A DNA stretch of 64,000 bases, from positions 248,001 to 312,000 of the forward strand of contig NZ_JALEKL010000009.1 of assembly GCF_022768985.1 (NCBI RefSeq), read 5' to 3'. Below the pieces are notes generated by a model. It did no database searches. It saw only the letters and a program-made list of their open reading frames with translations, and was not told where the DNA came from. Shown here one piece after another: positions 6,059 through 10,379 of the stretch; within the stretch, counting starts at the first letter, position 1; each line of letters opens with the position of its first letter. Made by a program: the position numbers and the translations under genes. This DNA comes from Methanosphaera sp. GTDB taxonomy: Archaea; Methanobacteriota; Methanobacteria; Methanobacteriales; Methanobacteriaceae.

Positions 6059-8064
6059 ATAATAACCAACAAGATGAAAACATATCACTCGAACTAGATG
6101 ATGATATAGTTATTCCTGAAAATTCTGATATAAAAGAAGAAACAGAGGAAAGTCAACAAAAAGACGAAAAAACTGAAGAAAAATCAGAACCCACAAAAGA
6201 TGACATAAAAAGTCACGTTATATCAGAAATTAACCCAGATGAATATGCAGATACAGAAGACATAGACATACCACCAATGCTAATTGACCAAATTATAGGT
6301 CAAGAAGAAGCTGTAGAAACAATAAAAAAAGCAGCAAAACAAAGAAGAAACGTACTTCTTATAGGAGAACCAGGTATTGGTAAATCAATGATTGCAAAAG
6401 CAATGGCAGAACTACTTCCACCAGAAGACCTACAAGATATACTTATATATCCAAATGTAGAAAATCCAAACAACCCAGTTGTAGGAGTAATGCCTGCAGG
6501 ACAAGGAAAAAAAGTAGTTCAAAATGCAAAAGATGAATTCAAAAAACAAGAATCAAAAAAGAACACATTAACAATAGCAATAATAGCACTTATTATGGCA
6601 ATAGGATTTATAACAAATCAATTCCTAACTGCAATAATAGCTGTTGGAATAGTATTTTTTGCATTATACCAAATCAAACCAAAATCCCAACATCTTGCAC
6701 CAAAACTTCTAGTAAATAGTGATGCAAAAAAAGTAGCACCATTTATAGATGCAACAGGAGCACATGCAGGAGCATTACTTGGTGATGTAAGACACGACCC
6801 ATACCAGTCAGGAGGACTTGGAACACCAGCACACGAAAGAGTAGAAAGTGGAATGATCCACAGAGCAAACAAAGGTGTACTCTACATTGACGAAATCGGT
6901 ACAATGGACATGAAAACACAACAAGAACTACTCACAGCACTCCAAGAACATAAACTTCAAATTACAGGACAAAGTGATACCAGTAGTGGAGCAATGGTAA
7001 GAACAGATGCAGTACCATGTGACTTCGTACTTGTAGCATCAGGAAACCTTGAAGTACTCGATGGCATGCACATTGCACTTAGATCAAGAATACGTGGATA
7101 TGGATATGAAGTATTCATGAAAGATACAATGGAAGATACATCAGAAAACAGAAAGAAAATATCACAATTTGTAGCACAAGAAGTTAAAAATGATGGACGT
7201 ATACCACACTTTACAAAAGAAGCTGTAGGTGAAATCATCAAAGAAGCACAACGTCGTGCAGGTAAAAAAGACACACTTACACTTAAACTACGTGATCTTG
7301 GTGGACTTGTAAGAGCAGCAGGAGATATAGCAGTAGAACAAGGAGCTAATGCTGTAACACCAGAACATGTATTTGAAGCTAAAAAACAGGCAAGAACACT
7401 AGAACAACAAATAGCAGACAGATACATAAAACAAAGAAAAGACTACAGTGTATATTCAAATGAAGGATCAAAAATTGGATGTATCAATGGTCTTGCTGTA
7501 ATTGGAGATTCAAGTGGTATAGTACTACCTATTGCTGCTGAAGCAGCCCCATCCCAGAGTAAAGAAGAAGGTAAAATTATTGCTGCAGGAAAACTTGGAG
7601 ATATTGCAAAAGAAGCAGTACAAAACGTTGGAGCTATAATTAAGAAAAGTATTGGAACTGACATTTCAAACTATGATATACACATACAATTTGTACAATC
7701 ATACGATGGAGTAGAAGGAGACAGTGCAAGTGTATCAATGGCAACAGCAATAATTTCAGCAATTGAAGATATACCAATTGATCAAACACTAGCACTTACT
7801 GGATCTTTAAGTGTACGTGGAACAGTACTACCAATTGGTGGAGCAACATATAAAATAGAAGCTGCAGCTCAATCAGGAATTAAAAAAGTATTAATACCTG
7901 CATCAAATCTTGATGATGTATTAATTGATAAAAAATATGTTGATGAAATTGAAATAATTCCAGTACATACACTTACAGAAGTACTAGAACATGCACTTGT
8001 AGGACCTAAAAAAGATGCATTTATCAATTCATTAAAAGAAAAACAACAAAAAACAAATCAATAA
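6046..8064 (+). CDS. lonB: Membrane-anchored ATP-dependent protease LonB
   Basis: LonB is the archaeal membrane-bound Lon protease that unfolds and degrades proteins from the cytoplasmic face. With the start proposed here it has 672 residues: an acidic, low-complexity N-terminal segment (1-75), Walker A GEPGIGKS (107-114), two membrane spans (about 175-208) inserted in the AAA domain, Walker B VLYIDE (about 278), and the protease domain with catalytic Ser560 (EGDSAS) and Lys603 (ATYKIEAA), 43 residues apart as expected. The first in-frame ATG (6277) falls inside the conserved start of the domain ([12 protein letters not shown]) and lacks a ribosome-binding site. GGAGGG precedes an ATT at 6046, so I place the start there. 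An automated call would give 6277. Confidence 0.9.
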
Positions 8065-8080
8065 ACACCAAAGACTAATC

Positions 8081-8122
8081 AAAAGAAGATAACTGATCTT
8101 CTTTTATTTTTTCCTATTTTTT
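8081..8122 (+). terminator. Hairpin terminator of lonB
   Basis: AAAAGAAGAT (8081-8090) and ATCTTCTTTT (8096-8105) are perfectly complementary with loop AACTG, followed by T-rich sequence to 8122. It starts 17 nt after the lonB stop. Confidence 0.75.
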
Positions 8123-8252
8123 TAGAAATTAAATTTTACATTAAAAAAACAATAGATTTTAATAATTTAAAACTTAGAAATAATAAATATCTTATTTTTT
8201 AAAAAAGAAACCAAAAACTTCTACTTAGAAAAAAAGAATTTGAATTTAAAAA

Positions 8253-8387
8253 AAAACATGTTTTAACAAGCCCCAAGGCTAGCAGATAAAAAAGGATAAA
8301 TTAAGAATTTATAATAAATAAGGGGTTAAATTAGAGAAAAATAAAAAGAATACTTTTTTTTAGTTTTAAAAAAGAAAAACATGTTTT
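8253..8387. repeat. Two copies of a 12-bp palindrome before the DEAD-box helicase
   Basis: The perfect palindrome AAAACATGTTTT occurs at 8253-8264 and again at 8376-8387, 123 bp apart. Both copies share the longer core AAAAACATGTTTTA. The 530-bp gap otherwise holds no reading frame. The pair looks like binding sites for a dimeric regulator; the function is inferred. Confidence 0.5.
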
Positions 8388-8399
8388 ACTTAGAGAAAA

Positions 8400-8532
8400 T
8401 AAGGGTTATATAGAGATATTTAATGGAATTTTAGATAATATGCCAATATTATCATTATACGAAATATACAAAAAATAGAAAAGGACAATCCCACCCTAAA
8501 AAAGTGACAAAGACAGACAATCATAACCCTTA
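8400..8532 (+). promoter_or_regulatory. Structured region upstream of the DEAD-box helicase, possible leader
   Basis: TAAGGGTTAT (8400-8409) is exactly complementary to ATAACCCTTA (8523-8532), closing a domain of 133 nt. Inside is a perfect hairpin, GATAATAT (8434-8441), loop GCCA, ATATTATC (8446-8453). A degenerate direct repeat beginning GACAATC occurs at 8484 and 8516. A TATA-like TTATATAG at 8406 overlaps the left arm, so whether the whole domain is transcribed is not settled. Confidence 0.45.
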
Positions 8533-8606
8533 AAGAAAAGATTATGGATAAAAACTGGAAAAAGAAATAAAAAAAATAACAATACTAAAACTATGAGATG
8601 GATTTT

Positions 8607-10379
8607 ATGGAAAAATTAAAATTTAAAGATTTAAACATATCAGAAGAAATACAAAAAGCTGTAGAAGATATGGGATTTGAGGAAGCATCACCAATTCAGT
8701 CACTTGCAATACCAAAGATTTTAGCAAAAAAAGATGTAATAGGACAAGCACAAACAGGAACAGGAAAAACTGCAGCATTTGGAATACCACTTCTTGAAAA
8801 TATAAATGAACATGATGAAAGTCTGCAAGCAATAATTTTATGTCCTACACGTGAACTTGCAATACAAGTTGCAGAAGAACTTAGAAAACTTGCAGCATAC
8901 CTACCAGAAATAAATGTACTACCAGTATATGGTGGACAACCAATAGATAGACAAATTAAAGCACTGAAAAAAGGTGTACAGATAATTATAGGAACACCAG
9001 GACGTGTAATGGATCATATATCACGTGGAACAATAAATCTCAGTACAATAAAAACAGTAATACTTGATGAAGCAGATGAAATGCTTGACATGGGATTTAG
9101 AGATGATATAGAATATATTCTTGAATTCATACCAGATGAAAGACAATTTTTACTATTTTCAGCAACACTTCCAGGTGAAATACTTCAACTTGCACAGAGA
9201 TACCAGAATGATTCTGAAATTGTAAAAGTAACACGTCATGAACTCACCACCCCTGATGTTGACCAGAAATACTTTGAAGTAAAAGAAGATATGAAACTCG
9301 AACTTCTATCAAGACTTCTTGATATAAATGATTTTGACTTATCACTTGTATTTTGTAATACAAAAAGAAAAGTTGACAAACTTGTAAGTCATCTTCAAGT
9401 AAGAGGATATCTTGCTGATGGTCTTCATGGAGATTTAACACAAAATCAGAGAGATCATGTAATGCGTAAATTTAAAAATGGTAACATTGAAATTCTTGTT
9501 GCAACAGATGTAGCAGCACGTGGTATTGATGTTGGTGGTGTTGAAGGAGTATTTAACTATGATATTCCAAATGATAATGAATACTATGTTCACAGAATAG
9601 GACGTACAGGACGTGCAGGTAAAACAGGAAAAGCATTTAGTTTTGTATCAGGACGTGAAATATATCAACTTCGTGATATTCAAAGATATGCAAAAACAAA
9701 GATTGAACAAGCACCAATTCCATCACTTATTGATGTAGAAGAAGTTAAAAAAGACAACTTCATAGAAGAACTTAAAGAAAGAATTAACACAGAAGATATT
9801 TCAAAAGAAACATACATCATTGAAAAACTTATAGAAGAAGATTATAACTCAATTGATATTGCAGCAACACTTCTTAAAGGAATTATTGAAGAAAGTCCAT
9901 ATAAACAGGAAGAATTTGGAGATACAGATGCAAATGAAGGATTTGTAAGATTCTTCATGAGTCTTGGAAGAAAACAAAACATTACAATTAGTGTAATTCT
10001 TAATTCAATCTATGAAAAAACAGCACTTACTGGTCGTCAAATAGGAAACATTGATATATTTGATAACTTCTCATTTATTGAAATTCCACAAGATCATGCA
10101 TCAGACTTCTACAGATTCATGGGAGATACATACATAGACAATAAAAGAGCACACATTGAACCTGCAAAACCTCGTGATAAATCAAATAAAAAAGATAAGA
10201 AACGATATTCAAATAAAAGAAAAAGAAAAAGTAATAAATTCAATCCACATAAAAAAGATAATAACTATCATGGTGGAAAAAATACTTATCGTAAAGATAG
10301 TTATAATAAAAAAAATACTTATAAAAAACATTCATACCAGAATGATTCCTACAAGTCATATCAAAAAGATGACTACTAG
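8607..10379 (+). CDS. DEAD-box RNA helicase
   Basis: A 590-residue ATP-dependent RNA helicase of the DeaD/CshA type. All motifs are present in order: Q motif (SPIQ, about residue 30), AQTGTGKT (about 48), PTRELA (80), GTPGR (129), DEAD (155), SAT, ATDVAARGID and HRIGRTGRAG. The second half has a linker domain and a basic tail rich in Lys, Asn and Tyr (from about residue 525) of the kind that adds RNA affinity. I chose ATG 8607 because GATGGA precedes it; 8598 is an alternative three codons upstream. The long, structured region before the gene suggests post-transcriptional or cold-response control. Confidence 0.92.
   Translation: MEKLKFKDLNISEEIQKAVEDMGFEEASPIQSLAIPKILAKKDVIGQAQTGTGKTAAFGIPLLENINEHDESLQAIILCPTRELAIQVAEELRKLAAYLPEINVLPVYGGQPIDRQIKALKKGVQIIIGTPGRVMDHISRGTINLSTIKTVILDEADEMLDMGFRDDIEYILEFIPDERQFLLFSATLPGEILQLAQRYQNDSEIVKVTRHELTTPDVDQKYFEVKEDMKLELLSRLLDINDFDLSLVFCNTKRKVDKLVSHLQVRGYLADGLHGDLTQNQRDHVMRKFKNGNIEILVATDVAARGIDVGGVEGVFNYDIPNDNEYYVHRIGRTGRAGKTGKAFSFVSGREIYQLRDIQRYAKTKIEQAPIPSLIDVEEVKKDNFIEELKERINTEDISKETYIIEKLIEEDYNSIDIAATLLKGIIEESPYKQEEFGDTDANEGFVRFFMSLGRKQNITISVILNSIYEKTALTGRQIGNIDIFDNFSFIEIPQDHASDFYRFMGDTYIDNKRAHIEPAKPRDKSNKKDKKRYSNKRKRKSNKFNPHKKDNNYHGGKNTYRKDSYNKKNTYKKHSYQNDSYKSYQKDDY

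Follow-up and report, generated by a model that had tools for sequence, protein, structure and literature searches.

The window, the 64,000-nt stretch analyzed here of a contig from Methanosphaera sp., a genus of gut methanogens, carries a DEAD-box helicase gene separated by a 533-nt spacer from its upstream neighbor lonB (Table 1). The encoded helicase is DeaD/Hera-like, consisting of a DEAD core, a DeaD dimerization domain, a DbpA RNA-binding domain that matches PF03880 above its cut-off, and a basic tail; solved-structure relatives of the RNA-binding domain are 5b88 and 2g0c/3moj. No hairpin-plus-U-run terminator or attenuator, in which a G+C-rich stem leads into a U tract, was found in 8065–8700.

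Table 1. Features of the lonB–helicase spacer and of the flanking genes (window coordinates).
Feature	Position	Strand	Basis or remark
lonB	6277–8064		Upstream neighbor of the helicase spacer
Run of 8 T	8354–8361	+	Sequence; presumably terminator-like for archaeal transcripts begun further upstream
Left outer arm, TAAGGGTTAT	8400–8409	+	Exact; unconserved; overlaps TATA candidate
Top-scoring TATA-box candidate in the spacer, GTTATATA	8405–8412	+	Hand-made consensus matrix; predicted start ~8434
Inner hairpin, GATAATAT-GCCA-ATATTATC, conserved element	8434–8453	+	Covariation, leader counts, covariance model
Hairpin apical loop, GCCA	8442–8445	+	Sequence
GACAATC, copy 1	8484–8490	+	Sequence
GACAATC, copy 2	8516–8522	+	Sequence
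Right outer arm, ATAACCCTTA	8523–8532	+	Exact; unconserved
DEAD-box helicase	8607–10379	+	Start 8607 by alignment with relatives; in-frame ATG at 8598
DbpA-type RNA-binding domain of helicase, candidate hairpin reader	9948–10163	+	PF03880

The initial annotation had described the end of this spacer as a closed, structured domain, in which two complementary outer arms enclose a perfect 8-bp hairpin and a GACAATC repeat, and had proposed a leader responsive to temperature or to the helicase. The arms were verified in coordinates and letters as exact reverse complements with 113 nt between them, and the hairpin and both copies of the repeat were likewise found as described. Chance levels were estimated by dinucleotide-shuffling the spacer 1000 times. 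Perfect 10-bp pairs within 150 nt that include three or more G/C arose in 2.6% of shuffles and perfect 10-bp pairs of any kind in 65%, so that the G/C-bearing outer arms alone are mildly unusual in this one sequence, a judgement made post hoc. An 8-bp hairpin with a loop of 3–8 nt arose in 36% of shuffles, and a 7-mer with at least three G/C and a second copy at most 40 nt away in 14%; the GACAATC repeat is probably due to chance. RNA folding assigned pair probabilities of 0.87–1.0 to the outer helix and a z score of −3.5 to the segment 8395–8537, which weakened to just −1.2 to −1.5 with more flank. In the single sequence the outer arms are thus mildly special and the inner hairpin is ordinary, a ranking that comparison across species inverts: conservation and compensatory changes mark the inner hairpin, and the outer arms show no conservation.

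When the helicase leaders of congeners were aligned, only the ribosome-binding region and the hairpin stood out as conserved islands; the aligner placed the hairpins of the window and of its closest relative (G001), which are more distant from the start codon, out of register. Of 20 Methanosphaera genomes, 16 carry, ahead of this helicase, a hairpin with the loop GCC(A/C) and a stem of 5 bp or more, as compared to a frequency of 0.3% per shuffled leader, and under the same strict rule it occurs exclusively on the sense strand, with zero antisense occurrences. G001 retains the loop GCCA on a stem with one mismatch, a degenerate copy, while G012 carries a variant loop (ATAATATT-ACCAG-AATATTAT) and G010 a decayed copy. 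The leader of G013, which is basal in the helicase tree, contains no hairpin. In G018 (L018, reverse strand, 1815–1895), two exact GCCA hairpins lie in tandem with a weaker third, the loop of which is CCCA. One Methanosphaera clade (L004, L008, L009, L011, L014, and L015) displays AAGTCC immediately 3′ of the hairpin, perhaps a second contact site.

The stem varies in sequence while retaining its pairing, with combinations such as AATAC/GTATT, AACAC/GTGTT, and GACAC/GTGTC, and AATAT/ATATT in the window. Over 17 copies, both-side changes were observed in seven of nine stem pairs, and the covariation score was reached by none of 500 shuffles. Sliding the partners by 1–3 columns reduced the paired cells from 83% to 26–52%, and pair changes map to several points of the helicase tree. 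Covariation support of this kind is known for few leader elements of archaeal mRNAs.

The outer pairing did not withstand the same comparison, as homologous arms exist in no congener. Enclosing pairing did not exceed the chance level in 13 of 16 leaders. The enclosing helix is unusually long in the window, G001, and G016 (matched by 0–1 of 100 shuffles each). In G001 and G016 (L003 and L006), the nearest species, a helix of 9–10 bp surrounds the hairpin and is built from unrelated sequences; these helices could be coincidental, or represent a closing stem under loose constraint. The left arm also overlaps the best TATA candidate, from which a transcription start at the foot of the hairpin is predicted, so that the arm may lie outside the mRNA and the closed domain may never form there. 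TATA positions were scored with a hand-made consensus matrix rather than from a mapped start, and the best-scoring positions shift relative to the hairpin from one species to another. A structured leader domain closed by the 10-bp arms and answering to temperature or helicase is accordingly very improbable, even with a helix predicted at high probability and long enclosing helices of different sequence in G001 and G016; it was rejected on the lack of conservation and the TATA overlap, and its folding is unremarkable once flank is added. Of the original proposal, the cis element ahead of the helicase gene survives in the inner hairpin, which is conserved, covarying, gene-specific, and found to travel with the helicase, while the closed domain does not. 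None of the sequence features appears to demand a role for temperature, and a helicase-responsive leader would fit what is seen, a reading strengthened by the DbpA-type domain in the same genus.

Alternatively, the inverted repeat could be a DNA operator close to the helicase promoter, bound by a dimeric transcription factor. Its palindromic form would suit this, as would its closeness to the predicted start in the window, and a changed half-site preference would likewise yield paired changes in the arms. The invariant part of the element is, however, its asymmetric center, GCC, in a single orientation, while the symmetric arms vary, the opposite of what is expected for a dimer operator and the reason that an RNA hairpin seems the better description. 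Neither the single site recovered from the genome nor the varying distance to the best-scoring TATA candidates is in keeping with an operator, and this alternative is regarded as improbable.

The hairpin appears to belong to this one gene. In the window genome, a covariance model of the hairpin recovered this site with E = 3.5e-4 and the next best at E ~3, leaving a sole convincing match, and the other matches inspected across the genus lie inside open frames and recur upstream of no gene; a multi-gene regulon was rejected on that observation. In three genomes (G017, G015, and G011; L010, L014, and L015), the upstream neighbor of the helicase is not lonB and the hairpin is still present, which indicates that the hairpin goes with the helicase. 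No convincing match to the GCC hairpin was found in 28 helicase-leader loci of other genera. Helicase upstream regions from five other Methanobacteriaceae genera (L067, L068, L069, L070, and L071) share a conserved leader element of another kind, TTTGATTATTn(0-3)TGCTAATTTT ... AAAATnnGCnnTAAATAATTAATTATC, which is predicted to form a hairpin and is without compensatory changes. In Rfam 15, nothing reached the gathering score in the spacer (window matches being tRNAs only) and nothing was returned up to E = 5 in 8066–8620; the open-licence literature yielded neither a published description of the hairpin nor a relevant paper on Methanosphaera transcription starts. Judged from sequence comparison, the hairpin looks like an undescribed cis control element for that single helicase gene.

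A candidate reader is encoded by the gene itself. The DbpA domain is present in the helicase of 20 of 20 Methanosphaera genomes and in 0 of 80 genomes sampled from other Methanobacteriaceae (16 genera), and the helicases of the other genera examined end at ~435 aa. Methanosphaera, alone among 17 Methanobacteriaceae genera in this respect, either gained the domain from outside or is the lone genus to have retained it. Related domains read RNA hairpins in more than one manner, that of YxiN recognizing the apical loop and that of Hera a GGGU stretch beside the hairpin (PMC3695512).

The explanation tentatively favored, at somewhat less than an even chance, is that the GCC(A/C)-loop hairpin forms part of the 5′ leader, or stands right at its beginning, and acts in cis on the helicase gene alone, its loop being read by the DbpA/YxiN-type domain of the helicase in a negative feedback. 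Free helicase, when plentiful, would bind the hairpin of its own leader via the loop, and its presence there would reduce translation or stability of the helicase mRNA; when structured RNA titrates the helicase away, as in the cold, helicase synthesis would rise. The sequences establish the hairpin with its constant loop, its covariation and strand bias, its tie to one gene, and its occurrence in the same genus as the domain; transcription of the hairpin, its binding by the helicase, and the direction of control are all presumed in this scheme. Several observations count against self-binding: G013 has the domain without the hairpin, the copy in G010 is decayed, and the hairpin, located 40–150 nt from the start codon, leaves the ribosome-binding site uncovered. 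The co-occurrence of hairpin and domain at the genus level may go back to one event in a common ancestor. The best-known targets of DbpA-type domains are, moreover, rRNAs, which likewise counts against recognition of the leader.

The leading rival, doubtful yet a real possibility, also holds the hairpin to be a cis-acting element of the mRNA leader, with another RNA-binding protein or an RNase as its reader, or with the hairpin itself as a stabilizer of the 5′ end. All of the conservation evidence serves this alternative equally, and the predicted start at the hairpin foot in the window would suit a stabilizer, although a stabilizer alone has no need of a fixed loop and the spacing between the hairpin and the best-scoring TATA candidates, which varies from species to species, weighs against the alternative. 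A methanogen precedent is the helicase mRNA MMP0457 of Methanococcus maripaludis, which has a 223-nt 5′UTR; the chaperone TRAM0076 binds this mRNA, and deletion of TRAM0076 raises its level (PMC6705878). In the window genome, the sole match to the TRAM model falls in a 432-aa frame, so that by this model there is no standalone TRAM protein, and a TRAM chaperone was rejected as the binder.

Under the favored self-binding explanation, a genus-specific archaeal feedback may be envisaged, in which the helicase acquired a bacterial-type DbpA domain, or was alone in keeping it, and its mRNA then gained the GCC-loop hairpin read by that domain, giving a one-gene riboregulator with specificity shifted from rRNA to its own leader. 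This fuller history is considered rather unlikely. G013 touches upon the gain of the hairpin, being basal and hairpin-less, with the domain that scores highest against the Pfam family model and is least like that of the window (47% identity, versus 62–89% for the complete domains of the others). The divergence of the G013 domain is weak evidence, because its dimerization domain is equally divergent.

Methanosphaera stadtmanae is a human gut methanogen, and a small single-gene element paired with an RNA-binding domain confined, within the family, to the same genus would make it straightforward to test whether an archaeal DEAD-box helicase is under feedback control. Self-recognition, if true, would raise the interest of the leader hairpin. 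The deaD gene of Methanococcoides burtonii also has a long mRNA leader. One close parallel is MMP0457, likewise a DEAD-box helicase gene of a methanogen, the leader of which is long, as is the spacer or leader in Methanosphaera, and for which there is evidence of control by a protein that binds its mRNA (PMC6705878); the difference is that a fixed-loop covarying hairpin is not reported in the available part of that source and that its mRNA is bound by a standalone TRAM protein, a kind of protein that the window genome lacks by the TRAM model. The bacterial cold-shock leader of cspA likewise precedes the gene of an RNA-remodeling protein, but the Methanosphaera leader offers no support for a large temperature-switching fold, its conserved part being one 22-nt hairpin. 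In E. coli, RNase E is, as cited in PMC5874925, an RNA enzyme under feedback control via its own leader (the rne 5′UTR), as proposed here, and differs in being another enzyme from another domain of life with another element, as compared to the single small fixed-loop hairpin of Methanosphaera. DbpA, YxiN, and Hera share with the Methanosphaera helicase the family of their C-terminal RNA-binding domain and, on the proposed reading, a hairpin-type target, and in Hera the core, dimerization domain, RNA-binding domain, and basic tail follow one another just as in the Methanosphaera protein (PMC3695512). Their target is hairpin 92 of 23S rRNA, whereas the candidate target in Methanosphaera is an mRNA leader hairpin with the loop GCC(A/C).
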